Below, piece after piece: positions 136-42,640 of a stretch of DNA of 44,052 bases (the stretch's first letter is position 1; each line of letters begins with the position of its first letter). A model generated the notes under the pieces. It saw only the letters and a program-made list of their open reading frames with translations. It had not been told where the DNA came from and did no database searches. Source of the DNA: a virus. The stretch lies in the IMG/VR virus record IMGVR_UViG_3300048918_000073, positions 1 to 44,052 of that record. One strand, given 5' to 3'. Made by a program: the position numbers and the translations under genes.

Positions 136-396
136 CCTGACAATTTCCGGGCAGTTCCAGAGAGGGACAACCTGTAGCGCACACCAGCAGGTAAACTCTC
201 TGATTTCCGCCTCGTGTCCTTCGACAGCCTGGAGACACCACAGAGCATCCTCCAGTCCATTAGACTCCAAGATTACCTTGAAGCTTACCTCCTCTGAGTC
301 TGCCTTGGTTTTCCCAAGGGTGCTTAGGAGCGTGGTCCAGCCGTCAGAGCAGGGGTGCTGCTTGCGGATGTCGTTAAGCGTGGTCGTAAGGTTCAC
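1..396 (-). CDS. Alanine-rich Imm5-like protein, N-terminal part (gene split by the window ends)
   Basis: Reading starts at GTG 396-394, 5 nt after GGAGAGA, with an in-frame stop directly upstream. It stays open to base 1 and continues from base 43917 to the stop at 43861, giving 150 aa in the closed circle. The first ~90 residues (including SNGLEDALWCLQAVEGHEAE and IREFTCWCA) form a compact helical domain. The rest is a 4-residue Ala/Trp/Asp/Arg repeat (AWDAARAA type). From memory this layout matches the helical family sometimes labelled Imm5-like or putative immunity protein, found in phages and bacteria. The function is not established. It is the first gene on the RNA-polymerase side of attP and has its own promoter-like motif at 426-443. 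Confidence 0.8.
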   Translation of the reverse strand, partial: MNLTTTLNDIRKQHPCSDGWTTLLSTLGKTKADSEEVSFKVILESNGLEDALWCLQAVEGHEAEIREFTCWCALQVVPLWNCPEIVRQYLKTGDEELRAAAWDAAGDAAWAAARATAWDAAWAAARAAARAA

Positions 397-425
397 TCAA
401 TCTCTCCATACGTCATTTGCTGATC

Positions 426-443
426 AATGTCTAATGGCTTACA
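426..443 (-). promoter_or_regulatory. Candidate phage RNA polymerase promoter P1
   Basis: The minus strand reads TGTAAGCCATTAGACATT, matching TGYAARCCANNWGRCATA except for the last base. It lies 30 bp upstream of the Imm5-like start and about 125 bp beyond attP on the side facing the RNA polymerase operon. Confidence 0.55.
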
Positions 444-567
444 TCTGTATTGTAAATAGGGAAATGAGGGTTTCTCCCTCCGCTTCGCCTCCATACTCCA
501 AACCATCTGTCATGTGCTTTTGGTGCCTCACTAGAGGCTCTAAGGACTGCGTGACCTACTAACCAGC

Positions 568-612
568 ACTGCAAATCCTTAAATCCCAGTTCGATTCTGG
601 GCGAGGCCTCCA
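568..612 (+). other. attP: attP core: 3' half of a tRNA-Cys(GCA) gene
   Basis: From 568 the sequence reads as a tRNA 3' half: anticodon loop CTGCAAA (GCA anticodon), 3' anticodon strand TCCTT, a perfect T-arm CCCAG-TTCGATT-CTGGG, the acceptor strand CGAGGCC, discriminator T and CCA at 610-612. The 5' half that should pair with it (acceptor GGCCTCG, D-arm) is missing upstream, so this is not a working tRNA. Tyrosine integrases commonly use such 3' tRNA segments, and an integrase gene lies about 0.8 kb away with one coding sequence between. Integration would restore an intact host tRNA. Confidence 0.82.
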
Positions 613-622
613 TCATTTCAAT

Positions 623-701
623 GGGTTAGCCTGTGGTTCATGTAGGTACTATGTGAAGATATGGAGGTGATTACCTCCTAGTTGCCTCCACAGGCTAACC
701 C
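623..701. promoter_or_regulatory. Nested inverted repeats beside attP
   Basis: GGGTTAGCCTGTGG (623-636) is perfectly inverted at 688-701. Inside it is a second hairpin, GGAGGT-gatt-ACCTCC (663-678). The heptamer GCCTCCA occurs three times, at 606-612, 684-690 and 705-711. No U-run follows on either strand, so a plain intrinsic terminator is unlikely. Integrase/excisionase arm binding or a structured transcript is more likely. Confidence 0.5.
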
Positions 702-720
702 TCTGCCTCCACTGGTCGCG

Positions 721-1377
721 TTATCGCGCGGCTCCTTCCTTGAGAGCGGCGAGGGCGGCTTGTTGCGCCGATACTATCGCTGTCACCGGGTTATCCGTGC
801 GCGTTCCGGTTGACGTAACGATTGGCTTGCGCCCTTCGTCATTCCAGAAGGCATCAATTGCTGAATTGAGGACGATTAGCGCCTCTCGCAGCTTCGCTTC
901 ACGCGCAATACCTTCGGCTACTCGCCGAGCCGTTGAGTCTTGTGCAAATTGAGCCTCTTTTAATTCCGCCTCGGCTTTCTCCGCCCGGGCAATGGCGGCG
1001 TCGCGCTCGGAAACCGTTTGACGGAACCAACGGCAGCTGACCGTCATCGACTTTTCTTTGCTGCGATGAGCTGGCCTGATACCCAAGCAAGCGCGCATTG
1101 CATCAAATTCTTCAAAGGTCATGTGAACAATGGCGCCGTCGCTTTCGTAATTCGTGGACGGGTTCAATTGGCCAGCCCAAGCGATTGACGCCCTCAGTTC
1201 CTCCAGTTCAGCGAGGAGGCGGGGAAGCGCGGTGGCCAATTGCTCGAACATGGCTTCCGCCTTCTCGTCATCAATAAGCGGGCCATAGCCATCTGAGCCG
1301 CTATATGGCAGGCCGTCTTTTGCCGCCTCGCACAGCCGCAGCAGTTCGGCCCTTTCATCGTCGGTGAGGTGGGTCAT
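721..1377 (-). CDS. Coiled-coil protein of unknown function between integrase and attP
   Basis: 218 aa. The ATG at 1377 follows the integrase TGA directly, with GGAG in the integrase tail acting as ribosome site, so the two are translationally linked. Residues 120-170 are a charged Ala/Glu/Lys/Arg heptad-like helix (SERDAAIARAEKAEAELKEA). The N-terminal 60 residues are also helical and acidic. No catalytic motif or membrane segment is visible. The position between int and attP is typical for accessory cargo. I do not recognise a family. Confidence 0.75.
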   Translation of the reverse strand: MTHLTDDERAELLRLCEAAKDGLPYSGSDGYGPLIDDEKAEAMFEQLATALPRLLAELEELRASIAWAGQLNPSTNYESDGAIVHMTFEEFDAMRACLGIRPAHRSKEKSMTVSCRWFRQTVSERDAAIARAEKAEAELKEAQFAQDSTARRVAEGIAREAKLREALIVLNSAIDAFWNDEGRKPIVTSTGTRTDNPVTAIVSAQQAALAALKEGAAR

Positions 1378-2391
1378 TCATTTATCTCCTCTAGTTAATG
1401 CCCCAGTGGCCTCTGCCAGGGTCTCCAGATCGGGATGTGTGTATCCCTTGGTCGTAGCCATTGATCGATGGCCTACCAAGTCCATAATGGTGGCTATGGG
1501 TACCTTCGCCTTGTTCAGCCTCGTGATTACCGTATGCCTCATGACGTGGGGAGTTACCCGGTGTGTGATCCCTAAGGCCTTCCTAGCCCTGTGGAGAGCC
1601 GAGTTGATTCTCCGGTAGGTAGGCCACCCAACGGTCGCCAAGGCCACTGCACGGGCCGCTAGGGATTCCTGGAGAGGCACCACTCGCTTGTCTCCGTTCT
1701 TGGTGCGTCCCTCCCAGTTGCCGATAGTCACAGAGCCTTCCTCCAGATTGAAGTCTGAAGGCTTCAGCTTGGTTAGCTCTCCGATACGCATGCCGGTAGT
1801 CAGTAGGAGGTCCATCACCACGGAGATGTCCGGGGAGCCTCTACCCGACAACCACTCCATGATGCGGGCGTCGTCCTCAGGGCTAATCGTGTCCTGCCTC
1901 GGCTCACCCTTCTTGAGGCTCTTCCAAGGGAACACAGGCTTACCCGCGATATGGTCCCGTTCGACTGCCCACTTGAGGGCCGCTGAGACGGTACATAAAT
2001 AACGATGGACTGTGGTGTCCCCCAGGCTCTTGGCCCTGAGGTCCTCGACCAGTTGGTCTAGCTGGGAGGTCCTGATAGACGCCACAGGCTTATCAAGGCC
2101 AAGGAGGTCCATACAGGCGTCGAAACGCTGTAGGCTCTGGGAGACGTCCTTGTGGTTCCTCCAGATGACCCTAGCGTCCTTCTTGAGGTCGCGCACTAGG
2201 TAGCCCCCTTGATGAGCCTGATGGGGCTGTACGAGGCCCTGTGGCGTTCCTAGAGCCAATGATAGCTCGATGGCTTTAGCTTCCTTGAAGTCGTGAGAGT
2301 ATTTCCTGTAGCGAGTTCCGTCGCGGACCACCTCAATCACCCACTGGCCAGTCGGCTCACCCTTGGCGTTCTTTTTGGCATATACGGACAT
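1378..2391 (-). CDS. int: Tyrosine site-specific recombinase (phage integrase)
   Basis: 337 aa from ATG 2391, chosen because GGAGAAAGG lies just upstream; a longer frame from TTG 2409 has no ribosome site. The N-terminal ~60 residues (VYAKKNAKGEPTGQWVIEVV) form an arm-binding type domain. A SAM-like core-binding domain follows. The catalytic domain has the first Arg in TTGMRIGELTKL, the HxxR box in PHVMRHTVITRL, LVGH followed by the Tyr nucleophile in KGYTH. It would join attP (568-612) to a tRNA-Cys gene of the host. Ends are complete and it looks functional. Confidence 0.95.
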   Translation of the reverse strand: MSVYAKKNAKGEPTGQWVIEVVRDGTRYRKYSHDFKEAKAIELSLALGTPQGLVQPHQAHQGGYLVRDLKKDARVIWRNHKDVSQSLQRFDACMDLLGLDKPVASIRTSQLDQLVEDLRAKSLGDTTVHRYLCTVSAALKWAVERDHIAGKPVFPWKSLKKGEPRQDTISPEDDARIMEWLSGRGSPDISVVMDLLLTTGMRIGELTKLKPSDFNLEEGSVTIGNWEGRTKNGDKRVVPLQESLAARAVALATVGWPTYRRINSALHRARKALGITHRVTPHVMRHTVITRLNKAKVPIATIMDLVGHRSMATTKGYTHPDLETLAEATGALTRGDK

Positions 2392-2416
2392 GACGGAACC
2401 TTTCTCCAATCGGTGA

Positions 2417-2434
2417 TTAACAACAGATGGTATT
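2417..2434 (-). promoter_or_regulatory. Degenerate promoter-like motif before integrase
   Basis: The minus strand reads AAATACCATCTGTTGTTA, sharing the ACCATCTG centre with the phage promoter motif but not the CATA end. It lies 26 bp from the integrase start. It could be a decayed site or coincidence. Confidence 0.2.
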
Positions 2435-2437
2435 TAT

Positions 2438-2572
2438 TCAGTGACCAAAAATAGTCAATGCCCAGATACCCCCAAACACCAGGACAAACGCCGCTGTCCA
2501 GATGTTTACCTCAAAGTACCCTAGTGTGTAGACCACAGTACAGACCGCAATGAATATCAGAAAACTAGACAT
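2438..2572 (-). CDS. Small two-helix membrane protein
   Basis: 44 aa, ATG 2572 to TGA 2438, with GGAGAA 8 nt upstream. It encodes MSSFLIFIAVCTVVYTLGYF followed by a second hydrophobic stretch, AAFVLVFGGIWALTIFG, separated by a short polar turn. It fits exactly between the MarR-like gene and integrase. Membrane location is predicted; the role (for example exclusion or a lysis modulator) cannot be told. Confidence 0.65.
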   Translation of the reverse strand: MSSFLIFIAVCTVVYTLGYFEVNIWTAAFVLVFGGIWALTIFGH

Positions 2573-2594
2573 AGAACTATTCTCCACGCAGAGG

Positions 2595-2975
2595 CTATGC
2601 CTCGCCACGCTCAATAATTTGAAGAACCTTATCGATCAACTTGCGACCCTTAGGCGTCAAGAAGTAACGCTGCTGGCGAAGGTCCACAGGGTCTTGCTGG
2701 CTATCTACCAGACCCAGGCCAGGGCCGCCTCCTCTGGTCTTCTTGCCGATCTCGAGGAGCGTCCTGGAAGCAACCGGCTGGATAACACCAATGTCCTTAG
2801 CGTAGGTCCCGGAACCATGGCCTGGCTTCATGGCGACTGCGAGGAGCGCCTGCGCGTAGGACGCCGGGAGCGTCGGTGAGACCTCACGGAGTACCTGGAG
2901 GACAGCAAAGAGACGGGAGAGTCTCCGCGAGCTGTCGTCATCAGGTGCGGCGAAGCGGTCTCGATGGTTGGACAT
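2595..2975 (-). CDS. MarR-like winged-helix protein, possible lysogeny regulator
   Basis: 126 aa from ATG 2975, the first ATG after the upstream stop that has a GGAAA site. The longer frame starting at 3038 overlaps the upstream gene. Residues 25-125 show helix-turn-helix spacing (TYAKDIGVIQPVASRTLLEI) followed by a wing and YFLTPKGRKLIDKVLQII, the usual end of a MarR-type wing and dimer helix. It is the only obvious DNA-binding regulator near the integrase, so it may act on the early or lysogeny promoters. A role as repressor is inference. Confidence 0.65.
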   Translation of the reverse strand: MSNHRDRFAAPDDDSSRRLSRLFAVLQVLREVSPTLPASYAQALLAVAMKPGHGSGTYAKDIGVIQPVASRTLLEIGKKTRGGGPGLGLVDSQQDPVDLRQQRYFLTPKGRKLIDKVLQIIERGEA

Positions 2976-3003
2976 GTGGGAATCATTTCCAGTGGCCCTG
3001 TGG

Positions 3004-3267
3004 TTAGATGGGTTTAACATAAAGGTCAGCCCCGTCAATTAGATCAAGGATGCGCCATGCGTCCTCTTCAGATACAAACATTACGCCTTTATCAGACAGT
3101 TGCCAAGTGTACTTCTCCGCCAAGTGGTATGCTTTCTTGGAAACTATTTGGAAAGCAGCTAGGCCTCCAGCGTCCCACAAGTACAAATCGGGAACAGACT
3201 CGCAGTGAAGCTGGGTACAGTCGGCGGTTTCCTGAGCGTCCTCAGGAGAGTTATGGTCCAATAGCAT
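3004..3267 (-). CDS. Conserved-looking small early protein
   Basis: 87 aa from ATG 3267, with AAGGAA 5 nt upstream. Mixed alpha/beta composition, acidic, two Cys near the N-terminus (DCTQLHC). No known motif. It lies in the minus-strand early cluster between a 57-aa gene and the MarR-like gene. The leader (3268-3411) folds into a long hairpin closed by CCTATGA/TCATAGG. Confidence 0.6.
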   Translation of the reverse strand: MLLDHNSPEDAQETADCTQLHCESVPDLYLWDAGGLAAFQIVSKKAYHLAEKYTWQLSDKGVMFVSEEDAWRILDLIDGADLYVKPI

Positions 3268-3411
3268 TGTATTTCCTTGAAGGCTTAGGGACGGTATCGG
3301 TCGGCCCGTGTCATGTTTGGTTAGGGAGGTTTCAGGCAGTTTCCCTATGAGCGCAAGGCGATATCTCGAAGGCTTCTCCTATTCATAGGTGCAGTGGTAA
3401 AAATACACCAA

Positions 3412-3585
3412 CTAAGCAAACAGAGCCTCAAAGCGTCGATACTTCGCGACAGCCGCGCGAGCGTCTCCCTGAGCAGCCGCAGCTGACACAAAGCCTCTAT
3501 CAGAGCCACACAAGGCGGTGCCACAATCAGTGAGCGACCAGTACCAAAGGCCGCGCGAGTTGGTGAGGTGAATGGAGATTTTCAT
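3412..3585 (-). CDS. Small early protein, DUF1508-like look
   Basis: 57 aa, ATG 3585 to TAG 3412. It starts 4 nt after the stop of the 102-aa gene upstream, with TAAGG as ribosome site, and fills an otherwise empty gap. The pattern MKISIHLTNSRGLWYWSLTD, then GFVSAAAAQGDARAAVAKYR, resembles the beta-strand plus helix unit of DUF1508/YegP proteins. That resemblance is by eye only. Confidence 0.55.
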   Translation of the reverse strand: MKISIHLTNSRGLWYWSLTDCGTALCGSDRGFVSAAAAQGDARAAVAKYRRFEALFA

Positions 3586-3589
3586 CGGG

Positions 3590-3898
3590 TTAGGCCTTAC
3601 GGTTCAAGAGGGTTTCGATGCGGTCCCACATCGCATCGGCCAGGGTGGAGGCGATGGCGATTTCGACGGTTACGTCCGAGGCGATGGCCGCATGATTATG
3701 GACGGGCGTCTCCTCCAGGTCGCTCACGAATTGCTTCGCTGCGGCAATGTCATCAAGCACGAAGTCCCAATAGATGCGGAACGACCTGATGTCGTCCAAA
3801 GCATCCCGATAGGTCACAAACCAGCGGAGGGCGGTTGCTGTGCGAGGCATCCATTGGAGAGCGTCAGCCTTGAAAGTTACGCTTTGCTTGTCAGTCAT
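3590..3898 (-). CDS. Small early protein of unknown function
   Basis: 102 aa from ATG 3898 with TAGGAG 6 nt upstream. Predicted mostly helical (DALDDIRSFRIYWDFVLDDI), no membrane segment or Cys. Its leader carries the third copy of the hairpin/TGTGG element at 3918-3961. Early promoter-proximal position suggests a host-interaction protein, but nothing in the sequence identifies the target. Confidence 0.6.
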   Translation of the reverse strand: MTDKQSVTFKADALQWMPRTATALRWFVTYRDALDDIRSFRIYWDFVLDDIAAAKQFVSDLEETPVHNHAAIASDVTVEIAIASTLADAMWDRIETLLNRKA

Positions 3899-3917
3899 GG
3901 TATGCTCCTAGTGTTAG

Positions 3918-3961
3918 GTAGACGTAATGATCCACAGCTAGGCGCTACTGAGAACGCCTAG
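3918..3961 (-). promoter_or_regulatory. Early leader element, copy 3 (hairpin plus TGTGG block)
   Basis: On the minus strand a CTAGGCG/CGCCTAG hairpin (3955-3961 with 3938-3944) is followed by TGTGGATCATTACGT, then the ribosome site of the 102-aa gene. Copies 1 and 2 have a different stem sequence but keep the pairing and the downstream block. Confidence 0.6.
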
Positions 3962-3971
3962 GGTTAGAGCA

Positions 3972-4199
3972 TCAGGCCTCAATATCCGAGATAGCCTCAC
4001 GCACGCACGTCAGGTTATACTTCGCACCATCGGGTGTCTTCTGGCCATCTAGGTCCCGCATCATGAGACGGGCGGCGGCTCCTACTGTCTTAGTCTTGCT
4101 GCGACACTCCAAGGCGAGGCGATAGAGACCTTCGTCGTTATTGATCCAGAGGGAGACGTTCCAAGCGTTCCAGCTTCTGTGGCCCTGATAGGTTGTCAT
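3972..4199 (-). CDS. Small conserved phage protein (WNAWNV motif)
   Basis: 75 aa from ATG 4199, preceded by GGAG 9 nt upstream; the same leader layout is seen before the 86-aa gene. It contains GHRSWNAWNVSLWINNDEG, and then a KTPDGAKYN segment, a combination I associate with a small phage protein family of unknown function. Soluble, mixed fold. Leader copy 2 of the hairpin element precedes it. Confidence 0.65.
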   Translation of the reverse strand: MTTYQGHRSWNAWNVSLWINNDEGLYRLALECRSKTKTVGAAARLMMRDLDGQKTPDGAKYNLTCVREAISDIEA

Positions 4200-4275
4200 A
4201 GTGTTTAACTCCATTGGGTATCTATCGGCACGTTATGAGCCACACATAGACCGCCTGTTGGAGGCCTATGGATAG
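4199..4275 (-). promoter_or_regulatory. Early leader element, copy 2
   Basis: Matches 4563-4639 over about 75 bp; bases 4227-4257 are identical to 4591-4621. On the minus strand it forms CATAGGCCTCC/GGCGGTCTATG (4245-4270), then TGTGGCTCATAACGTGCC, then GGAG and the start codon. The loop differs from copy 1 while the stem is kept. Confidence 0.7.
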
Positions 4276-4302
4276 ACCATCAGGCTATCGTAGTATGAAT
4301 CC

Positions 4303-4563
4303 TTACAGTTCGAGATGATCCACAGCTATTTGTGCGAGTTCATTAGGGTTGTCCCCAACAAGCAGGAATCCCTCATCGTCAGCGCATGGATCAAATAGAA
4401 CAAAGGCACCTGGGTACTTCTTGACACGACTACGCAGTCCAGCCAGCGCCTCTTCGCATATCTCTGGTATTCCATTATCCATCTTAATGGTCCCGTTTAG
4501 GAAATCATTCCGCGCCACTATCTGGTAAGCCAGGGCCTCAATTAGTGCTTTAGGGTCTGACAT
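4303..4563 (-). CDS. Small early protein of unknown function
   Basis: 86 aa from ATG 4563; GGAG sits 9 nt upstream in a leader nearly the same as that of the next gene. The ATG at 4578 lies before this ribosome site and is less likely. The sequence is helical at the N-terminus (ALIEALAYQIVARNDFLNG) and acidic at the C-terminus. No recognised domain. Confidence 0.6.
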   Translation of the reverse strand: MSDPKALIEALAYQIVARNDFLNGTIKMDNGIPEICEEALAGLRSRVKKYPGAFVLFDPCADDEGFLLVGDNPNELAQIAVDHLEL

Positions 4564-4639
4564 GGTATCTAACTCCATATGGTCTGCATTGGCACGTTAT
4601 GAGCCACACATAGACCGCCTGCGGAGGCCTATGGATTAG
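4563..4639 (-). promoter_or_regulatory. Early leader element, copy 1
   Basis: Same element as 4199-4275: stem 4609-4619 with 4623-4633 (3-nt loop), conserved TGTGG block, then the ribosome site of the 86-aa gene. It may be an RNase III site, a translational control element or a processed leader, as seen between T7 early genes. Confidence 0.7.
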
Positions 4640-4669
4640 ATCATGCATGCATCGGGCGAGAGGTTAGCC

Positions 4670-4894
4670 CTAGCAGGCTATTAGTTCGTACTCATCCCAT
4701 AGTACAGCCAGCAGTGTAGCGTAGTCATCGTACAGTTCCGCATTATCATCGAGTTCTTCCCGGAAGTCTGTCGCCGCGTCGCCCTGGAGAAATACCTCTT
4801 GGGCTGTCTTTATGTTACAGAATGAGTACGCAAGACCACCTCCAAACGACGTAACACGCCACGCTGGCAGGTCGTGAATGATAGCTGACTTCAT
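4670..4894 (-). CDS. First gene of the leftward early operon, unknown
   Basis: 74 aa from ATG 4894 with GATGGGG upstream. Acidic C-terminus (DFREELDDNAELYDDYATLL). It lies closest to the divergent promoter region, the position held in T7 by anti-host proteins such as gp0.3, which is also small and acidic. There is no sequence evidence that it shares that function. Confidence 0.6.
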   Translation of the reverse strand: MKSAIIHDLPAWRVTSFGGGLAYSFCNIKTAQEVFLQGDAATDFREELDDNAELYDDYATLLAVLWDEYELIAC

Positions 4895-4929
4895 TGTGTG
4901 GCCCCATCTCGTTCGCCTCTTGTGATTAC

Positions 4930-4958
4930 AATGTAAGCCCGATGCATTCCTTATGCAA
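4930..4958 (-). promoter_or_regulatory. Candidate host sigma70 promoter for the leftward early operon
   Basis: The minus strand has TTGCAT (4958-4953), a 17-nt spacer and TACATT (4935-4930). This is a weak match at -35 and moderate at -10, correctly placed 36 bp from the first early start codon. Confidence 0.35.
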
Positions 4959-4967
4959 GCGTTATTT

Positions 4968-4985
4968 TATGTCATTTGGGAAATA
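4968..4985 (-). promoter_or_regulatory. Candidate phage RNA polymerase promoter P-early
   Basis: The minus strand reads TATTTCCCAAATGACATA followed by AAATAAC. The 3' half (CCANNTGRCATA-ARATAAC) matches the replication-gene sites well, the 5' half poorly. It would let the phage polymerase re-transcribe early genes and integrase. Confidence 0.4.
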
Positions 4986-4992
4986 AATGTGA

Positions 4993-5021
4993 TTGACAAC
5001 CAAATGATGATGCATTAGGTT
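4993..5021 (+). promoter_or_regulatory. Candidate host sigma70 promoter for the rightward operon
   Basis: Consensus TTGACA at 4993-4998, a 17-nt spacer, and TAGGTT at 5016-5021, 32 bp upstream of the ATG at 5053. This is the best sigma70-type promoter seen in the control region. Confidence 0.55.
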
Positions 5022-5052
5022 AGCTGTAGGTTGAACAAAAGGACATGCCGCC

Positions 5053-23314: not shown

Positions 23315-24865
23315 ATGAAGAAGATTCTTTCAGTATTTCTTGCTGCGCTATTCATTACGTCGCAGGCTTTCGCCGCCGCGCCTGCCATTCCTCCCCACGC
23401 TCCCGTTAAACTCTACCAGCCTAACATTGTGGGTCCTGCCACAGTACGTCAGGTCACGAACCGCACCGGCATTCCTAACCAAATTTCCGGCACGAACACC
23501 AAGATGAGTGGCCGCTCGTGGCAGATGGCCTATGTGCCGGTTTCTGCGCTCAAGGTGTGTATCCCGAATTATTATGTCTCCTCGGCCACCTCTGGCGTCG
23601 AAACCACACCTGGAGGCTCAGTCTCAGCGCATATCGTGGTGGAATACCCGCACGGTACGTTCAAGGACCTGACGTGGGGTGGCACCACTCCCGGCACCGT
23701 GACGGCGCTCTCCAACGGCTGCACCGATCTGACGGACCTCGGGTTCACCATCCCGGCCTACGCTAAGTTCCGCATCAACTACTTCCTCGATTGGAGTGGC
23801 GGCGCGGGCAAGGCGGTTTACTCGTCGTGGTCGAACGCCTGCGACAAGGGACCTAACGGCGACGAGTTCACTCTCAACACGGTTCTGACGGACCATAGCT
23901 CTGACGACACCATTATCGGCGTCAACACCCCGGCGAACTGCTGGTTTCCCGGCGCTGTCATGGCGCGGTCAGACCGCGCTGTCTGGTGGCTAATTGGGGA
24001 CAGTCTCGTCGCTGGTGTCAACGACCTCATGGCCGACCCGTCTGGGGGCAGGGGCCTCTTAGGGCGCGCCGCTGCGTCTCTGGGTCCTCAGCTGAACCTG
24101 GGCGTCCCCGGCGACCGAGCCAACTGGTACGCGACTGGCTCAAACGCCTCGCTCCGCACGGCTCTCGCAGCTACGGCGGGTGCTACCTCGGCTCTCCTCG
24201 AGCTAGGCGTGAATGACTTCTTTGCGGGAACTCGTACAGCAGACAACGTGCTGACTGACCGAGCCTCAGTGAGGACCAAGGCTACTACGGCTATCCCAGG
24301 TATCCGAGTCTATGACACCACGGTAACTCCTGAGACCACCTCTACGGACGGATGGAACACTACAGTCAACCAGACCACGGTAGGTGTTGGAGCTAACAAT
24401 AGCCGAATGGCTTTCAACGACTTCCTCAGGGGGGTCACGAGCTACACGGCGACCTGTACGCTCGCTGGAACCACGGCTGTCACTGGATGTACTGGACTGA
24501 CGGTCACAACAGCTGCGACTGGTATGTACGCCAGTGGTACCAACCTCCCGGCCTCTGACGTCATTACGGCGATCAATCAGTACGCTGGGACGTTCACCCT
24601 GACGACCACGGCGAGCGGCTCCGGCGCAACCACCGTGACGTTCTCATGGCCGACCTTCTCGACCTCGTGGCCAACCTCGAGTGCGGGTTTGATTGACATC
24701 GCGAGACTCGTTGAGTGCGCGCCTAATCAGGCGGGCGTCTTGGTGGCAAACGGCGGCGTGTGGTGCGTCGGATATGTGGGTCAGACCGATGGCATCCATA
24801 CCACCAGCTTTGGTCTGATGCAGGTCCAGCAGCTGCTGACCAACCAGCTGGCTGTTCTAAGGTAA
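23315..24865 (+). CDS. SGNH/GDSL hydrolase with signal peptide, tail-associated esterase candidate
   Basis: 516 aa from ATG 23315. Residues 1-22 (MKKILSVFLAALFITSQAFA) are a clear Sec signal. A beta domain follows to about 220. The SGNH core has block I IGDSLVAG, block III GVNDFF and block V DGIHTTS, giving Ser, Asn, and Asp/His. A Thr-rich insertion of about 65 residues (TATCTLAGTTAVTG) sits between blocks III and V. Likely deacetylates or de-esterifies a surface glycan. Lies inside the tail/head gene set between two identical-type twin terminators. Whether it is in the virion or secreted by the host is unclear. Confidence 0.75.
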   Translation: MKKILSVFLAALFITSQAFAAAPAIPPHAPVKLYQPNIVGPATVRQVTNRTGIPNQISGTNTKMSGRSWQMAYVPVSALKVCIPNYYVSSATSGVETTPGGSVSAHIVVEYPHGTFKDLTWGGTTPGTVTALSNGCTDLTDLGFTIPAYAKFRINYFLDWSGGAGKAVYSSWSNACDKGPNGDEFTLNTVLTDHSSDDTIIGVNTPANCWFPGAVMARSDRAVWWLIGDSLVAGVNDLMADPSGGRGLLGRAAASLGPQLNLGVPGDRANWYATGSNASLRTALAATAGATSALLELGVNDFFAGTRTADNVLTDRASVRTKATTAIPGIRVYDTTVTPETTSTDGWNTTVNQTTVGVGANNSRMAFNDFLRGVTSYTATCTLAGTTAVTGCTGLTVTTAATGMYASGTNLPASDVITAINQYAGTFTLTTTASGSGATTVTFSWPTFSTSWPTSSAGLIDIARLVECAPNQAGVLVANGGVWCVGYVGQTDGIHTTSFGLMQVQQLLTNQLAVLR

Positions 24866-29023: not shown

Positions 29024-29069
29024 AAAAATCCCGAAGATAAACCCATTAGGGTCCGTCTTCGGGATTTTT
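29024..29069. terminator. Strong bidirectional intrinsic terminator
   Basis: Perfect 14-bp inverted repeat AAAAATCCCGAAGA (29024-29037) and TCTTCGGGATTTTT (29056-29069). Flanking A-run and T-run serve both strands. It separates the converging plus and minus blocks. Confidence 0.93.
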
Positions 29070-29352: not shown

Positions 29353-31362
29353 TCAGCGAATCGGGCAAGCGCCTGTCGAACAGGTTTCCCCAATAAGTTC
29401 CTCAGAGCTACTGACGAGCTCCAAAGGCATCAGCCGAGCGACATAGGCGTCATGCACTGCCTTGGTGACGACCTCCTGAGGCAAATAGGGATACCCCAGA
29501 TCAGCTGCCGTCTTCGTCGGGTCCGCTCGGAACAGGAAGCTGACGCCCACATAGCTATCCCAGTGGTCATAAATCCAATCGACAATCGACGGGACCTCGC
29601 TAGGATCATAGCTGACGGTGATCGACGCATTGTGGTCAACATAGTGTTCCATCAGGAAACGATAACGCTCCAGCTGCTCGACTGCGGTCTCCAGATTGAC
29701 GTGGAGAACCTCTCCGCTGGCTGTAGTGACCTCCGAGAACTCGACGTCCTCCCAGGCCACAGGGAACGCAATAATGACAGCAGAGGCGTCCGTGGGAGCC
29801 GGAAATACCGTGTAGCCAGCCTCTCGGCACTTCTCGACAATCGGGTCATGGACGGAGAACTTCACATTGTTGATGATGTAGCGGCCCAGCGGCTTGTGAA
29901 GGCCCTCGGTGGTGTCCATGATCTTCGACAAGGTACCACTTGGCTTGACCGTGGTGACAGCCTTGGACCTCGGGAGACCCAACTCGTCGGCCATGTCATT
30001 GACGGCCTTCTTGGCGATGTTCTTGATTACCCGTAGACGCGTCCCGACATCCTGATATTCCCAGCGGACGATGCCCGTGAGACCGACGCCCGTGAGACGA
30101 AGGAACTCGTTGAGTTCATGCCAAGTGTCCTGAAGAACTCCGTCATGTAGATCGACACAGGTCTGCCGATAATTTGCTCGTGCAATGATGCGTATAGCTT
30201 CACATAAGCCGTCCCAATCGCCATTAAATTTTCCAACGTCAGTCTCCACCAAATTACAGAATGAGGAATCGCCCAGCAAGATTTCAGCGCAGGGATTCAC
30301 GCCACGGAACCAGGGAGCGCGCTTGAGAGCAGCTTGGCCGTTAATGAACCCCGGCTCGGACCCTCCTGCATCCACCATGGCCTGGAAGATGTCGGTGAGT
30401 TCGTCCTTGGACGGCTTGTGGTAGAAAATCAGCGAGTTGTTCGACTGCTCTCGCTGTGGATTGAGGAGCCAGTATTCCTTCTTGGCCCTCGCAAACTCAA
30501 CCCACTCAGGGTCGCCGTATGGAACCACAATGATCTCAGCGGAGCGGCGGCTTGAGAGCGTGGTGCCGAGCCAGTTGAGAACATCCAGGATGTCCATTCG
30601 AGTGAGCAGTTTACATGCCTTTTGGTTTAGGATCAAGGCAATCTTCTCCATCGCCTCTGCGATCAGAGCGTCTCCTGAGGAAATCCAGCCGTAACTCTTG
30701 AGGCGAGCGCCCGCAGGACGAATCTCAGAGAAGTCCAGGACGAGGAGGTCACAGGGCTTCTTGTTCGCCAGCAGCTTGCCGGGGACCTTCGCCCAGGCTT
30801 CAGCCGAGTCACCAACCCGGATAGTCCAGCGGACCTTCCGATTGCGGGTCTCGTCAAAGAAGTGATCGAAGGTCTCGACGTTGCCCTCAACGCCCTTCTC
30901 TTCCGGGTCAGTCTTGGGGCTCCTGATGATCTGAATCTTCAGGGGCTTCGTGAAGCCATTTAGAATCCCAACGACAGGCTCAGCGCCCACGCCGCAGCCC
31001 TGGAGGAGCAGCCAGAAGCAATCCACGACGTCGCGGATCGTTGACACGCGGGTGAACGAGCAGTTGAACTGAGAGGCCTCGCGGACCTTGGCGACGTCCG
31101 TCCCGCCCAACCAAAGGGTGCGACCGGAGGGGAGAGCCTTTCGGCGCAGCATCAGGAGCCGCAGCTGCTCCAGTTCGTATTCCTGGGTGATGTTCAGGGG
31201 CTTGCTCTGAGCGCGTTCCCAGAGCCATTTCTGATGGCCGATGACGCGGTCTGTGGTCTGCTCCCATGTTTCGAACTCCGTGGAGGAGCCATCGATTGGT
31301 CGGTTATATGTTCTCCGAACGATCACCTCTGCTCGCGTACTAAACGGGTTTTCTTTAGGCAT
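29353..31362 (-). CDS. nrdJ: Adenosylcobalamin-dependent (class II, monomeric) ribonucleotide reductase
   Basis: 669 aa from ATG 31362. Spacing matches the Lactobacillus leichmannii-type enzyme: redox pair C101 and C369, radical Cys C358 in NPCAEILL with E360 two residues on, PSGT motif, and C-terminal shuttle CSTGAC near the end. Reduces ribonucleoside triphosphates to deoxy forms with coenzyme B12. Supplies DNA precursors with the neighbouring MazG-like and DUF3310 genes and with ThyX. B12 need implies a host that makes or imports it. Marine podoviruses also carry this enzyme. Confidence 0.95.
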   Translation of the reverse strand: MPKENPFSTRAEVIVRRTYNRPIDGSSTEFETWEQTTDRVIGHQKWLWERAQSKPLNITQEYELEQLRLLMLRRKALPSGRTLWLGGTDVAKVREASQFNCSFTRVSTIRDVVDCFWLLLQGCGVGAEPVVGILNGFTKPLKIQIIRSPKTDPEEKGVEGNVETFDHFFDETRNRKVRWTIRVGDSAEAWAKVPGKLLANKKPCDLLVLDFSEIRPAGARLKSYGWISSGDALIAEAMEKIALILNQKACKLLTRMDILDVLNWLGTTLSSRRSAEIIVVPYGDPEWVEFARAKKEYWLLNPQREQSNNSLIFYHKPSKDELTDIFQAMVDAGGSEPGFINGQAALKRAPWFRGVNPCAEILLGDSSFCNLVETDVGKFNGDWDGLCEAIRIIARANYRQTCVDLHDGVLQDTWHELNEFLRLTGVGLTGIVRWEYQDVGTRLRVIKNIAKKAVNDMADELGLPRSKAVTTVKPSGTLSKIMDTTEGLHKPLGRYIINNVKFSVHDPIVEKCREAGYTVFPAPTDASAVIIAFPVAWEDVEFSEVTTASGEVLHVNLETAVEQLERYRFLMEHYVDHNASITVSYDPSEVPSIVDWIYDHWDSYVGVSFLFRADPTKTAADLGYPYLPQEVVTKAVHDAYVARLMPLELVSSSEELIGETCSTGACPIR

Positions 31363-31364
31363 TA

Positions 31365-31382
31365 TATTCCTTATGGCTTACA
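31365..31382 (-). promoter_or_regulatory. Candidate phage RNA polymerase promoter before nrdJ
   Basis: The minus strand reads TGTAAGCCATAAGGAATA directly before the nrdJ start; the TGTAAGCCAT half is exact, the CATA end is not. It overlaps the AAGGA ribosome site. Confidence 0.4.
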
Positions 31383-31393
31383 ATTGGACGTGA

Positions 31394-31810
31394 TTACGCG
31401 ATGAGGTCGAGCAGATACGGCGGCTTGTAGTTCTTCCCCTTCAATATTTTTCCGTCTTCACGCAGCAGCGGCTTGCCGTCTACCAGCTTGCTCATGTTGG
31501 ACTCGTGGACCCGCTTGAAGGCTTCCCCACAGACATCATTAGGGAACCAACCCATCGCCTGGAGAGCCAGCCCGTACTTCCCTGGCTCATCCATGAAGCC
31601 CATATCGACGCCGCTCAGGTTCGCACAGGTGGACACATAGATCAGGTCGCAGATTTCCTTGAGTAATGCTACAGCGGCTTCCTTTACCTCGGCGTTCTCC
31701 TCTTCGCAGAGATTGATGCGCGTCTCGGCGGTCTTGGTGTCCTTGAAGGTCTCCATGAACTCAAGGCACATGGTCTCGACCGGCGACAGAATCGTGGGGA
31801 TATTGGTCAT
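31394..31810 (-). CDS. MazG-like nucleotide pyrophosphohydrolase
   Basis: 138 aa from ATG 31810 (overlaps upstream TAA). All-helical NTP pyrophosphatase pattern: EEENAEVKEAAVALLKEICD with metal-binding acids, then DLIYVSTCAN. The C-terminal VHESNMSKLVDGKPLLREDG and GKNYKPPYLLDL is typical of phage MazG-like enzymes. May cleave dUTP or other NTPs, or alter the ppGpp response. Confidence 0.75.
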   Translation of the reverse strand: MTNIPTILSPVETMCLEFMETFKDTKTAETRINLCEEENAEVKEAAVALLKEICDLIYVSTCANLSGVDMGFMDEPGKYGLALQAMGWFPNDVCGEAFKRVHESNMSKLVDGKPLLREDGKILKGKNYKPPYLLDLIA

Positions 31811-32358
31811 TACTGGTTAGCCTTCCTGATAGCTTTACGGTCTTCCATGGCGATAAGCTGGAGGCAAATCTGGATGGCCTTCTGGAGGTCCTGCTTGCCG
31901 CCCTTCGACTTCCACCGATAGATGTACTTCATGGCCGACGCCTCAGCGAAGGGGATGTCGTTGTCGTGGAAGAACTCTATGGGCTGGATGGTGCCTCGCT
32001 GGTAGTGGGAGCCACCCGTTTGGAACTCTAGCGCGCGATGCGCTTTGGCGATCAGGTCATCGAGGAAGTTGCTGGCGATGGGAGTAGCCTCGGGAGCAAC
32101 CTCTGGAATATGGCTTACAGGAGCCTCCTCCATAGCCACCTGTGCAGCCTCAGAGAAAGTCCAGGGGTTAGGCCACTTCACGAAGTCCAAATGGTCATGC
32201 AGCGTCTCGGTGGAACACATCGAGCTAAACACGCTGATACGGCCATCAGAGGTTATGCCATGAACCGTCATGACTTCCCCCTGAGCCCCTGCGGCAATCA
32301 GCTGAACCTTGTCACCAACCTTGAATGCGTTGGTCAGCGCAGCTGTACTGCTTGTCAC
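31810..32358 (-). CDS. DUF3310-domain protein
   Basis: 182 aa from GTG 32358, which overlaps the exonuclease stop (GTGA) with GGGAG 5 nt upstream; GTG 32370 is less well placed. N-terminal KOW/SH3-like part (FKVGDKVQLIAAGAQGEVMT). C-terminal DUF3310: GGSHYQRGTIQPIEFFHDND, then KYIYRWKSKGGKQDLQKAIQ. Family function is uncertain (sometimes called nucleotide kinase). Probably linked to nucleotide metabolism. Confidence 0.8.
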   Translation of the reverse strand: MTSSTAALTNAFKVGDKVQLIAAGAQGEVMTVHGITSDGRISVFSSMCSTETLHDHLDFVKWPNPWTFSEAAQVAMEEAPVSHIPEVAPEATPIASNFLDDLIAKAHRALEFQTGGSHYQRGTIQPIEFFHDNDIPFAEASAMKYIYRWKSKGGKQDLQKAIQICLQLIAMEDRKAIRKANQ

Positions 32359-33104
32359 TTCGGCTCCCACAGGATTACCTCTTTCTTTTTGGTGTCCCAG
32401 TCGTCAGACCGGAGGATTCGCGCCAAGCGGGCTTGCAGGAGCGCGTCGTCATAAGTGAGGCCCTTGGCCGTGTAGGCTTGCAGGACGGCCTGCCACATAT
32501 CCTCGAGAGTCTCTTTACCCTCGAGGACCTTCTCAGCGCCCTTAGCGCCGCATCCTGGCAGACCTTTGTAGCCGTCCGTGACGTCGCCCATGAGGGTCTG
32601 CGTCATCCAGAATTTATCAGCGTTAAACTCAGAGACCTTTAGGATTTCCTCATCTCGATACACCCGACCAGGAATAGTCTTCAGGTCCTTGTCGGCACTG
32701 ATGATGATCGAGCCGGGAAGATTCCCTCCGGTCGCCCAGATACCGAGCAGATCATCCGCCTCGATAGTCTCCACGCGCTTGCAGGGATACTCGTCCTCGA
32801 GTTTCTCCATGATGTAGCCGTAGCAGAGCGGCTTGCGGCTTCGTCCCGCCTTGTACTCAGGGAAGATGGCTCGCCTGAAGTTTGAATCTCCAGGACCACT
32901 CAGAGCGAAATACATCTGGCCCTGGCCGCAGGCGTTCCGATAGGTCGCTAGCTGGCGCTCTACGGCGTCCCAGGCCTCATTCCTGTTAGAACTAAGGACG
33001 TGGTTCACGTCATCCCAAAGGACTTCCCGCTCACACGCCGCAGCTGCCTTGTAGAGAAGCATGTCGGCGTCTATGAGAAGCGGGGGGCCGAAGCCCCCAC
33101 TCAC
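32355..33104 (-). CDS. 5'-3' exonuclease, T7 gp6-like
   Basis: 249 aa from GTG 33104, overlapping the upstream stop by GTGA and preceded by GAAGG. Flap-nuclease residues: LLIDADMLLYKAA, EYKAGRSRKP, VETIEADDLLGIWA, ISADKDLKTIPG, and the helix-hairpin motif DVTDGYKGLPGCGAKGAEKV. Removes RNA primers and degrades host DNA for nucleotide reuse in T7. Adjacent to nucleotide genes. Confidence 0.9.
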   Translation of the reverse strand: MSGGFGPPLLIDADMLLYKAAAACEREVLWDDVNHVLSSNRNEAWDAVERQLATYRNACGQGQMYFALSGPGDSNFRRAIFPEYKAGRSRKPLCYGYIMEKLEDEYPCKRVETIEADDLLGIWATGGNLPGSIIISADKDLKTIPGRVYRDEEILKVSEFNADKFWMTQTLMGDVTDGYKGLPGCGAKGAEKVLEGKETLEDMWQAVLQAYTAKGLTYDDALLQARLARILRSDDWDTKKKEVILWEPK

Positions 33105-33349
33105 TTGGCCACCTTCTTTGCGGTAACCGTCGTGGCCTTCTCCTGAGCGTCCTTCACGACGCCGTCCCAATGGGTGTCCTCGGAGACCAGTTCGACCTCG
33201 GGACCAACATCAGGCTCGATCACCGCAACCCTTGGATGCTTGTCGCCACAGGTGTCCGGGAGAGACCGTCCGCATTTCTTGCAGACCACGTCAGCACCCT
33301 TGATGGAGCAGTTAGCTGCGAGGGCCATGCCTTCGATGTACTGACTCAC
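33101..33349 (-). CDS. Small zinc-ribbon-like protein
   Basis: 82 aa from GTG 33349 (GTGA overlap with upstream gene). Contains CKKCGRSLPDTCGDKH, a possible four-ligand zinc site, followed by an acidic tail. Ends in KKVAK. Function unknown; cotranslated with exonuclease. Confidence 0.6.
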   Translation of the reverse strand: MSQYIEGMALAANCSIKGADVVCKKCGRSLPDTCGDKHPRVAVIEPDVGPEVELVSEDTHWDGVVKDAQEKATTVTAKKVAK

Positions 33350-33567
33350 TGGGTCACCTCAGAGTCCAGGATGACGTCAGGCGAGACTACAGGAACCTCA
33401 GGGACGGCTGGGAGGACTGGGGGAGCTACAGGGGTAGCTGCGGTCGTCAGGCCGTCCTCGTAGGCCTCCAGGAGAGCCAGCTTGATAGCATTGACGGAGT
33501 ACGTGGTGTCGCCATAAGCAAGCACGAAGGCGTTCAGCTTTTCGGCTTTTTCAGTGTAGTCAGGCAT
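33346..33567 (-). CDS. Small proline-rich protein
   Basis: 73 aa from ATG 33567, 6 nt after AAAGGA; adjacent ATG 33570 is equally in frame. Helical N-terminus (EKAEKLNAFVLAYGDTTYSV), then a Pro/Val linker (PVAPPVLPAVPEVPVVSPDV). The promoter-like motif lies 12 bp upstream. Function unknown. Confidence 0.6.
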   Translation of the reverse strand: MPDYTEKAEKLNAFVLAYGDTTYSVNAIKLALLEAYEDGLTTAATPVAPPVLPAVPEVPVVSPDVILDSEVTQ

Positions 33568-33578
33568 CATATGTCCTT

Positions 33579-33596
33579 TATGTCGATTGGTTTGCA
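33579..33596 (-). promoter_or_regulatory. Candidate phage RNA polymerase promoter
   Basis: Minus strand TGCAAACCAATCGACATA, followed by AAGGA and the start codon of the 73-aa gene. Close match to TGYAARCCANNWGRCATA. Confidence 0.6.
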
Positions 33597-33604
33597 TTTA
33601 GTGA

Positions 33605-33832
33605 TTAGTCTTGGAAGTCATCTTCCAGTTCAGCCTGATTCAGCAGGCTAAGTCCCTTCACCGATGGCCTCCATTCGCGCCCATAGACGTCGAGGTGGAT
33701 GCGCGTTGAGATGAAACCCATGGATGCAGCCATTGCGACAGCCGCTGAGTTCTGACGGGCGTAGTCGCAGGAGACCGAGAAGCCTCCGCGTTTATGAGCC
33801 TCTAGAACCACCTCCGTAATTGTCTTGTCCAT
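33605..33832 (-). CDS. Small protein of unknown function
   Basis: 75 aa from ATG 33832 with CAGGAG 6 nt upstream. Pattern MDKTITEVVLEAHKRGGFSV, then AAVAMAASMGFISTRIHLDV, ends acidic. Might be a small alpha/beta DNA-binding or helper protein. Located between DNA polymerase and the nucleotide genes. Confidence 0.6.
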   Translation of the reverse strand: MDKTITEVVLEAHKRGGFSVSCDYARQNSAAVAMAASMGFISTRIHLDVYGREWRPSVKGLSLLNQAELEDDFQD

Positions 33833-33852
33833 GTCCGCTCCTGTTGGTGATC

Positions 33853-33870
33853 TATGCCAGATGGCTTACA
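33853..33870 (-). promoter_or_regulatory. Candidate phage RNA polymerase promoter
   Basis: Minus strand TGTAAGCCATCTGGCATA, a full match to the consensus, 20 bp before the 75-aa gene. Lies at the extreme 3' end of the DNA polymerase frame. Confidence 0.65.
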
Positions 33871-33875
33871 TCACG

Positions 33876-35669
33876 TCAATGGGTTTCTGCCCAATTATTT
33901 CCGATTTTGTAGTCGCTATCGAGACGCACCTTGAAGGCGTAGGGTTCACCTGCCGCCCTCGCGTGTCTGACGAGAATTTCGCCGACAGCTTCCGCGATAT
34001 CTGCTCGGCATGCGACCTGGAGTTCGTCGTGACACCAGCAGACCAGAACGTAATCCTTCCCGTACCCCCATTCGTACTTCGTATCCAACTCATCAACCGC
34101 GTTACACATCCAAGTTTTACACAGGATGGCCTCGCTGCTCTGAATCAGGAAGTTCAGCGCCGAGTGGTCAGACCGAATAGGAACGCGGCGACCGTCGAGA
34201 GACTTCAGGAACCCCTTCTTACAGGCTTCCTTGACGGCCTTGGTGATCTTTCCTAGGGCCGGAATTTTCGACATGAGGTTATTCAGAATGCGCTTTCCTC
34301 CAGCGGCTCCGAGACCGTTTATCTTTCCGATCTTAGGAGCGAACGCTCCGAATATTAGAGCGTAGATCGTCGTCTTGGAGTCGTCCCTGGTCTTGATGTC
34401 AGGCGCTGCGGCGTCCTTGTGGAACGTGTGAACGTCACCGTCGACTACGATCTTTCCGTAGGCTCCTCCGTCGATGTAGGACATCCAGTGGCCGAGGATG
34501 CGAAGCTGCGCCCCCGCCATATCGGCACCCACGAGTTTCCATCCCAATGGAACACCGAATAGAGCCCTACATTCAGGACCGTACAGAGCCGAGGAGTTAG
34601 GTACCTGACCAATGTTGGGCTTAGAGTGCGCCGCACGGGATGTGACGGTTCCCATCGGGTTATATCGCGAGTGCAAGAGTCCATTTTCGTCCACCAGTCG
34701 GAGCCAGCCGTTGTCGCCGTCAGACAGCTGTCCGAGACGCTTTTGGATGAGCAAATAATCGATCAGGTCCTGAGCCTCAGGCAGCTTGATGGTTTCCATG
34801 ACGTCACCGTCGAGCTTCGCACGGCCCTTGTCGGTAAACTCCTCAGGTTCCCATCCGGCCTCCCTCAGCTTCTTCTCGATATGGACTCGAGACCCAGGGT
34901 TGAACACCACAGTTTTCCAGTTGGTTACCGTGTCACCCTTCTTGAACCCACGGACCTTGTTGTCGCGTTTCGCCACGAACTGCTTATCGATCTCCTGCCA
35001 GGAGCCGAACTTGTCGACCAGGGAGGACTCGAGGACGTCTCTCTTCTCAACGAGCATCGTATATAGCGCCTGAGCAGCCTTTGAATCGAAGAACCAACCG
35101 GCCTCCGTCATGCGCCCAACGATTTCCTCGACACGATGCTCTAACTCAAGAGGGGCTTGGGGATAGTCCATCGGCTTGAGGTGACGCAGGAGGCGCAGAT
35201 TGGTCCGAAGGTCGCCTTCACAGTAGGACAGCATTTCGGGAGTGAAGACTTCCCAACCACCATCATACTCAATCTTGTGGACACCCAGCCGAATGCCCCA
35301 AGCCTTTAGCGAGTGAGAGCCATACAGCTTCCCCGGAAGTTTGGACGCAATGGGAGCGTCCTGCTTCTTCAAGTCAGGATGAATGAGCCTGGAAGCCACC
35401 AGCGTGTCTAAAACACGAGTTCCGGGGCGAGTATGCCAGTTCTTCAACTTCGCGAGGACCTTGAGGTCATAGGATAGTACGTTGTGGCCTAGCAAAGTCT
35501 CGGCTTCATACAGCATATCCAGTGCCGCATCAATATTATCCGGCCCGAAGCTAAAGACCTCCTCGGTGGTCGTATCTATGATACACACGCAGTGAATCTG
35601 TGAGACCGTCGGCAGCAGTCCATTAGTTTCAATGTCGAAGAGTAGGTCGCGGCGTTTCTCATGTTCCAA
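33876..35669 (-). CDS. Family A DNA polymerase, T7 gp5-like
   Basis: 597 aa from TTG 35669, the only start in frame near the N-terminus; GGAG lies 10 nt upstream. Exonuclease domain: FDIETNGLLP, HNVLSYDLKVLAKL, YCEGDLRTNLRLL. Polymerase: motif A GADMAGAQLRILGHWM, O-helix RDDSKTTIYALIFGA (Lys and Tyr kept), motif C CWCHDELQ. Shorter than T7 gp5 (704 aa). It replicates the phage genome with the gp4-like helicase. An HNH gene overlaps its start by 11 nt. Confidence 0.95.
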   Translation of the reverse strand: MEHEKRRDLLFDIETNGLLPTVSQIHCVCIIDTTTEEVFSFGPDNIDAALDMLYEAETLLGHNVLSYDLKVLAKLKNWHTRPGTRVLDTLVASRLIHPDLKKQDAPIASKLPGKLYGSHSLKAWGIRLGVHKIEYDGGWEVFTPEMLSYCEGDLRTNLRLLRHLKPMDYPQAPLELEHRVEEIVGRMTEAGWFFDSKAAQALYTMLVEKRDVLESSLVDKFGSWQEIDKQFVAKRDNKVRGFKKGDTVTNWKTVVFNPGSRVHIEKKLREAGWEPEEFTDKGRAKLDGDVMETIKLPEAQDLIDYLLIQKRLGQLSDGDNGWLRLVDENGLLHSRYNPMGTVTSRAAHSKPNIGQVPNSSALYGPECRALFGVPLGWKLVGADMAGAQLRILGHWMSYIDGGAYGKIVVDGDVHTFHKDAAAPDIKTRDDSKTTIYALIFGAFAPKIGKINGLGAAGGKRILNNLMSKIPALGKITKAVKEACKKGFLKSLDGRRVPIRSDHSALNFLIQSSEAILCKTWMCNAVDELDTKYEWGYGKDYVLVCWCHDELQVACRADIAEAVGEILVRHARAAGEPYAFKVRLDSDYKIGNNWAETH

Positions 35670-36093
35670 TGGGTGTGTACTCCTTTATGTATGCAGACAG
35701 GCGTGAAAGTATATTAGGGTTTTCCCTAGCGAGACCTAACGCTGTATTGCAGCTATTACATAACAATCTCCGTACCATTCCCGTGATGTGGTCGTGGTCT
35801 ACCACCAGTTTACCGAATGTTGCTGTATCTTCATGTTCGTCGCATATGTAGCATCGGTATGCTTGATCGTCGCGCATCTCGTTGTATTGGCTATCAGAGA
35901 TTCCGTACGTGTTTCGTAGATGAGATGTCCTACTAGACGCGGATTTCTTCGTCTTGTCTCTATTCTTACCATTTATCTTGTTGACTGAAGACGCACAAGA
36001 CTTGCAGTAGCACCACAGTCCTCCTCTATAGCGAGAATCTTTATAGAAATGATCAGTCGACTTCTCCTCACCACACTTCGTACACTTCTTCAC
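35659..36093 (-). CDS. Endonuclease VII-type HNH homing endonuclease, copy 4
   Basis: 144 aa from GTG 36093. CTKCGE and CKSCAS zinc pair, CYICDE, then VVDHDHITGMVRRLLCNSCN. AT-richer than the genes around it. Inserted between primase-helicase and DNA polymerase; its stop lies inside the polymerase start region. Same family as the three copies in the structural block. Confidence 0.85.
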   Translation of the reverse strand: MKKCTKCGEEKSTDHFYKDSRYRGGLWCYCKSCASSVNKINGKNRDKTKKSASSRTSHLRNTYGISDSQYNEMRDDQAYRCYICDEHEDTATFGKLVVDHDHITGMVRRLLCNSCNTALGLARENPNILSRLSAYIKEYTPIGT

Positions 36094-36106
36094 ACGTTAG
36101 GTATCC

Positions 36107-36124
36107 TATGTCAAATGGTTTGTA
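36107..36124 (-). promoter_or_regulatory. Candidate phage RNA polymerase promoter
   Basis: Minus strand TACAAACCATTTGACATA then GGATACC; one mismatch to the consensus. Lies between the primase-helicase stop and the HNH gene, and so upstream of DNA polymerase. Confidence 0.6.
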
Positions 36125-37738: not shown

Positions 37739-37742
37739 GATA

Positions 37743-38273
37743 TCAGTTGGTCTTGGAGGGGACGTGAAGGAGAACTGTAGGAGAGAGCCACCAAGCCACC
37801 TCTGGACATTCCTTCCCGAACTTGACGAGGACCCCTTGGCCGTGAGGGCATCCAGGATTCAGGTTATGGACTTCCCCTGTGAAACCAAGGACCCGACCAG
37901 AGTCAGTGTGCTTACCGCTCACAACCTCCACGGTATCTCCTACGCGGAACGGATAGGTATTCTCCGTGAGGCCTGCCTGGATATCTTCTGGCTTCTCATC
38001 AGAGACGTAGGTGTCCTCGAAGGTGGGCTCATCGTCAGACGTGCTGGTACCCTCGATTTCCTCAGAATAGTCATCCAGGAACACCCCGGTATCTCCATCA
38101 GGCTGCACGTCAAATACACCATAGCCAGTAGCCGTCAGGAACTCCCCAAAGGCTGCCGCCACGTCAATCGTCTCGACGCACTCCTCGTCCGCGATAGTCT
38201 TGGTGAACGTGAACTCGCCTACAGCCGTGACGTTCTTGTAGATGAACGTAATGCTTTCGCTATTGTGTGCCAT
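37743..38273 (-). CDS. Unknown protein with a KOW/SH3-like C-terminal part
   Basis: 176 aa from ATG 38273 with AAAGGAA upstream. N-terminal beta-rich domain (SITFIYKNVTAVGEFTFTKT), an acidic linker (DDYSEEIEGTSTSDDEPTFE), and a C-terminal PFRVGDTVEVVSGKHTDSGR segment like a small beta-barrel. Might bind RNA, DNA or a polymerase. Sits between endonuclease and primase-helicase genes; no family recognised. Confidence 0.6.
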   Translation of the reverse strand: MAHNSESITFIYKNVTAVGEFTFTKTIADEECVETIDVAAAFGEFLTATGYGVFDVQPDGDTGVFLDDYSEEIEGTSTSDDEPTFEDTYVSDEKPEDIQAGLTENTYPFRVGDTVEVVSGKHTDSGRVLGFTGEVHNLNPGCPHGQGVLVKFGKECPEVAWWLSPTVLLHVPSKTN

Positions 38274-38288
38274 ATGGGTTCCTTTGAA

Positions 38289-39520: not shown

Positions 39521-39545
39521 TAGGTATGTTCTCCGGTTGTTATCT

Positions 39546-39563
39546 TATGCCAGATGGTTTGCT
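39546..39563 (-). promoter_or_regulatory. Candidate phage RNA polymerase promoter
   Basis: Minus strand AGCAAACCATCTGGCATA, followed by AGATAAC, 25 bp before the SSB start. Differs from the consensus only at the first base. Confidence 0.65.
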
Positions 39564-39568
39564 TATAG

Positions 39569-42149: not shown

Positions 42150-42208
42150 CAGGTCTCCCTTGGGATGGCACGAAGCCCTAGAGTGGAAATTACCAGTGAC
42201 CGGGGGGA

Positions 42209-42247: not shown

Positions 42248-42260
42248 TGTCAGGTCATGC

Positions 42261-42599: not shown

Positions 42600-42640
42600 G
42601 TCGTGTTCCTTTGTGCTTGTCTGTGTTCCGATTGGTTATA

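Follow-up and report, generated by a model that had tools for sequence, protein, structure and literature searches.

A tRNA-Cys-derived attachment site between the integrase and the T7-type RNA polymerase operon of a virus contig, and its possible part in polymerase silencing

T7-like phages were long held to be strictly lytic, and it is still asked how, in the prophage state, they silence their RNA polymerase. The window analyzed here, the whole of a 44,052-base virus contig, encodes a T7-type polymerase, and the position of its attP, between the integrase gene and the polymerase operon, offers a simple hypothesis: integration may part the polymerase from the early genes whose transcription could otherwise run into it.

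Layout of the genome

The two ends of the record have 123 exact bases in common (13-135 and 43930-44052), which fall inside a 12-bp tandem repeat; mismatches follow beyond these bases, so that there is no perfect terminal repeat. The genome is nevertheless near-certainly circular, and the minus-strand path is continuous, because a separate related contig (L002; 72-97% identical over the main matching blocks) crosses the corresponding record junction unbroken. The tandem repeat (43877-44052 and 1-394) encodes an Ala/Trp/Asp/Arg-rich repeat protein across the junction, and its repeat number is different in L002.

Along the minus strand, the early genes (4894 down to 2595) are followed by the integrase, an ORF at 721-1377, attP, the repeat-protein ORF over the junction, small ORFs, the thymidylate synthase ThyX (42672-43424; PF02511, 1e-37), an ORF resembling ribosomal protein L7/L12, the RNA polymerase, an endonuclease, a primase/helicase, polymerase A, an exonuclease, and ribonucleotide reductase. 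This gene order, together with the junction in L002, bears out the order proposed for the circle in the preliminary description (early genes, integrase, attP, polymerase operon). The gap from attP to the polymerase is ∼2.4 kb and holds several genes, namely the repeat protein, the small ORFs, ThyX, and the L7/L12-like ORF.

The polymerase itself (39744-42149, minus strand; PF00940, 4.5e-90; phrog_414, 7e-190) is of the T7-type, single-subunit kind, and is only ∼32% identical to the best polymerases of the phage collection. When it was used alone as a query against viral contigs there was no match, and a polymerase alignment recovered only the two known relatives, L002 and L003. A hairpin in the polymerase leader (42190-42260, minus strand; dG -25, z -3.4) is present in L002 as well. 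Directly upstream, the small ORF at 42261-42599 is weakly similar to the L7/L12 C-terminal domain; a different ORF replaces it in L002.

The structural genes (6007-29020) occupy the plus strand, giving a hybrid genome plan in which T7-type polymerase and replication genes (29353-43854) are joined with a structural module of the opposite orientation. The portal protein belongs to phrog_1216, with best matches to Aeromonas BUCT695, Vibrio Vp_R1, and Pelagibacter HTVC106P (26-29% identity), and the structural operon also includes a lysophospholipase/esterase-like protein (23315-24865; phrog_8480).

The attachment site and its surroundings

The attP core (approximately 569-612, plus strand) derives from a tRNA-Cys(GCA), of which it retains the 3' half, starting at the anticodon loop and ending with CCA. 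It is identical to a real Shinella tRNA-Cys at 39 of 44 nt, where shuffled windows reach at most 25-26/44, while the 5' half upstream of it is unrelated (7/30). The same half-tRNA separates integrase from polymerase in both L002 and L003, which keep the integrase-attP-polymerase order (one of them across the record junction), and its position is kept in L003 even though the integrase there is 51% identical to that of this phage; a short flank, TCTAAGGAC, is common to all three. Integrase sites that lie in tRNA genes are usually marked by just such a partial tRNA. A standard crossover would rebuild the full tRNA at the integrase end, pointing toward the integrase, and the polymerase operon would then face host DNA at the other prophage end. 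Because attP lies between integrase and polymerase on a co-oriented path, integration must separate the two, so the earlier claim that early genes and integrase part from the polymerase follows from the position of attP. Overlapping the tRNA part of attP on the minus strand is a promoter-like match (594-621, TTGAAA-16-CAGAAT), among the best of that strand, which would stay on the integrase side after integration; it may be due to chance, as its -10 is fixed by the tRNA sequence.

Between integrase and attP lies an ORF of unknown function (721-1377, minus strand), which is rearranged in L002 and for which PHROG, Pfam, and NCBIfam gave no match. The space between this ORF and attP is filled by a strong hairpin (613-715; -41/-43 kcal/mol, z -4.8 on both strands) that has no U-tract and is almost unchanged in L002. 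It may serve as an att arm, as an insulator, or as an end signal for the rebuilt tRNA. An Rfam search gave no match.

The predicted permutation agrees with a T7-like remnant in Shinella sp. PSBB067, in which polymerase, zinc peptidase, HTH regulator, integrase, SPFH protein, and tRNA-Leu follow one another in one direction, with the polymerase against host genes and the integrase beside the tRNA. There (L012:43377-46247 with L012:37784-37866), an open polymerase frame lies between the host gene PHO4 and phage early genes; it starts <350 bp from this phosphate transporter gene and the DUF47 partner gene, and is co-directional with them. An integrated polymerase can therefore sit downstream of a co-directional host operon, although the remnant, without most phage genes and with no clear second att site, is one imperfect case. 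In another record (G022), polymerase and integrase stand at opposite ends; this record was rejected as proof of integration, since it lacks end repeats and may represent a circular contig opened at an intergenic position. Genome contigs scanned for the polymerase and the tRNA-Cys half yielded no prophage, lysogen, integrated copy, or host.

Early control and the path to the polymerase

The tyrosine integrase (1378-2409, minus strand; PF00589, 4e-25; phrog_1, 2e-50) has a candidate promoter, TTGACT-16-TAAATA with a ACCATCTG element (2405-2460, minus strand). Directly upstream is a MarR-like transcriptional regulator (2595-3038, minus strand; phrog_9665, 2e-20), which has no Pfam match of its own, but is 43% identical to an ORF of L003 and 25% identical to the regulator (gp10) of HTVC019P (E 3e-11). 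Four small ORFs on the same strand (3590-3898, 3972-4214, 4303-4578, and 4670-4894), with matches to phrog_871 and phrog_17546 of unknown function, are presumed early genes from their position and from homology to HTVC019P-type phages. Two of them are preceded by copies of a 64-nt repeat (4194-4257 and 4558-4621, 84% identical), adjoined by a hairpin, CCATAGGCCTCC..GGCGGTCTATG, also present in L002; together these are possibly an RNA processing or stabilizing signal.

Upstream of the early genes is a divergent control region (4912-5022) with promoter-like sites on both strands: TTGCAT-17-TACATT at 4958 on the minus strand, toward the early genes, and TTGACA-17-TAGGTT at 4993 on the plus strand. 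A dyad, TGCAT-N5-ATGCA, covers the -35 of the former. These ∼110 bp are nearly identical in L002 while the flanks on both sides diverge, and the regulator, with this conserved region and its operator-like dyads, points to ordinary repression.

Terminators were sought by combining folding energy with U-tracts. The only strong one found is bidirectional (29025-29069; dG -23 to -28, U-tracts on both strands), between the converging structural and replication operons, and thus beyond the early, integrase, and polymerase genes. From the early promoter to the polymerase, the same scan found no comparable U-tract terminator; Rho-dependent ends on this path are possible.

Promoter-like elements are also present between attP and the polymerase. 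One of these (42628-42667, minus strand), TTGACT-N17-CATATA with spacer AAACCATCTGG, is repeated in the form TTGAC-N17-CATA at 42667, 39572, and 33879, and these three copies reach 33-34 bits where the null maximum is 18, with the caveat that the same three built the matrix. Further copies score ∼13-22 bits, of which only that at 36121 (21.7) exceeds the null maximum, and partial copies precede the integrase and follow attP. In L002, elements of this type follow attP and also stand 134 bp upstream of the polymerase gene. A second promoter-like element (394-456, minus strand), located between attP and the first gene of the polymerase operon, is weak in the window (6.9 bits) and has a better match in L002. 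A repeat search in L003 gave no repeated promoter motif. The repeated element was rejected as a clean sigma-70 promoter, as its -35 distance varies (17 in three copies, 21 in L002), and it may be a host promoter, a phage promoter, or an operator. Given these elements, the polymerase may not depend on read-through alone.

Consequences of integration for polymerase expression

The layout described here is already known, and is general to integrase-carrying T7-like phages (HTVC019P, P-SSP7, CRP-171, Pasto). Regulator, integrase, and polymerase follow in order on one strand in HTVC019P, HTVC119P, CRP-171, and P-SSP7. The HTVC019P-type pelagiphages (HTVC019P, HTVC022P) and HTVC119P also have the small early genes in the same one-strand order, but in the window the structural genes are on the opposite strand and the portal and head proteins belong to other families. 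HTVC022P integrates at tRNA-Cys, as proposed here, and expresses RNA polymerase, MarR-like regulator, and integrase highly and early (PMC12753301). In Desulfovibrio phage ProddE the integrase is likewise upstream of the polymerase, although with a CI-type repressor between them, and gene numbering in its record begins with repressor and polymerase and ends with integrase, consistent with a prophage order. The window has the single-subunit polymerase, the MarR-like regulator upstream of the integrase, and the tRNA-derived attP among co-oriented genes that mark a temperate T7-like control module. It also has the T7-like polymerase and replication genes of the Autographiviridae, but not their one-strand arrangement with a T7-like structural module, since structural genes are on the plus strand and early and replication genes on the minus strand. 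What the window fits is the control module rather than the entire family Autographiviridae, given that its structural genes run on the opposite strand and have their relatives among other phages.

The explanation that we favor, with a probability of roughly 0.55, combines early read-through across attP, uncoupled on integration, with repression of early and local promoters as the primary control. The segment would then be the lysogeny and early control module of a temperate phage that encodes a T7-type RNA polymerase. We infer that, in the free genome, host RNA polymerase would start near 4958 and transcribe the small early genes, the MarR-like regulator, and the integrase, and that part of this early transcription would cross attP and reach the polymerase and replication operon. 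Once the phage had integrated at a host tRNA-Cys, that operon would lie at the other prophage end, beyond the reach of early read-through. Should stable lysogens form, silencing would most likely come from repression that acts both on the early promoter and on the local promoters following attP, and physical uncoupling, a plausible candidate mechanism, would add a second layer. This combined reading is supported by the gene order and attP, both kept in L002 and L003, by the one strong terminator at 29025-29069, by the homologous regulator in the same place in HTVC019P, by the conserved control region and the promoter-like elements beyond attP, by the early expression in HTVC022P and the proposals made for LUZ100, and by the Shinella remnant; against it, the hairpin at 613-715 could stop read-through, and the promoter-like elements might belong to the phage polymerase and would then be unable to initiate polymerase expression by themselves.

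Linkage between integrase and attP is general, and the pair may simply travel together and sit upstream of the polymerase by chance, with no regulatory role and with integration perhaps rare or transient. T7-like cyanophages of the same layout, with attP downstream of the integrase, lend weight to this possibility, as S-TIP37 integrates without forming stable lysogens (PMC8776855), although P-SSP7 and S-TIP37 use a tRNA-Leu site, unlike the tRNA-Cys here. A related T7-type record (G009), with the integrase far from the polymerase, is also a counterexample to the generality of the arrangement. The layout is, however, kept across distant phages, and T7-like prophages are reported to be widespread (PMC10134795), which leaves the absence of any regulatory role somewhat unlikely.

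We consider it unlikely, too, that the 613-715 hairpin acts as a terminator or insulator and already keeps the early and polymerase operons apart in the free genome, so that integration would change little; this possibility overlaps with the others, and their likelihoods are not exclusive. Its folding energy, its z-score on both strands, and its retention in L002 would suit such a function, and there are parallels: Rhizobium phage Pasto, with the same layout of HTH/MarR-like regulator, integrase, tRNA, and polymerase, has tRNA-Leu rather than tRNA-Cys and annotated terminators on both sides of it, and Pseudomonas phage LUZ100 has a strong terminator after the integrase, where not all transcripts end (PMC10134795). 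A tRNA-Leu gene also lies between integrase and polymerase in Limnohabitans phage YIMV22061. The long, branched stem of the hairpin lacks a U-tract, however, and its position and dyads are compatible with an att arm as well. LUZ100 further differs in its tRNA-Leu and in the mapped terminator near its integrase, for which the window has no U-tract counterpart, and it is for LUZ100 that both read-through into the polymerase and MarR repression of the polymerase were already proposed (PMC10134795).

The strict form of the topological switch put forward in the preliminary description, in which the polymerase is expressed only by read-through from the early promoter, with integration alone turning the lytic program off and excision turning it on, is favored by the co-oriented path without U-tract terminators, by the place of attP in 3/3 related contigs, and by the same gene order in several known phages, but is quite improbable because of the local promoter-like elements and the regulator with its operator-like dyads, and an integrated polymerase can follow a co-directional host operon (PHO4/DUF47 in Shinella) and is not necessarily cut off from transcription. 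That description also named what would speak against the switch. As to a host promoter active in lysogens between attP and polymerase, promoter-like elements there supply half of the case; as to a terminator in the circle, there is no U-tract terminator, but the -41 kcal/mol hairpin does lie on the path.

In lambda sib retroregulation, too, a cis element that lies downstream of the integrase, across attP, is separated from it on integration; lambda sib acts on integrase mRNA stability, whereas polymerase supply is at issue here. The suggested likeness to integration-dependent immunity holds for mycobacteriophage BPs only in that integration itself alters expression: in BPs, attP lies within the repressor gene, whose product is altered by integration (PMC4557955), while here it is intergenic, between ORF 721-1377 and the next operon. 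In the literature covered, which lacked one key paper on temperate T7-like phages, no statement was found that integration breaks the path from integrase to polymerase. That selection has made such uncoupling a general means of lysogeny in temperate T7-like phages, and that this accounts for the attP position in distant lineages, seems doubtful. If uncoupling does occur, the integration event would itself switch transcription; if it does not, repression by the MarR-like protein would be the likely answer to how these phages silence their polymerase as prophages.
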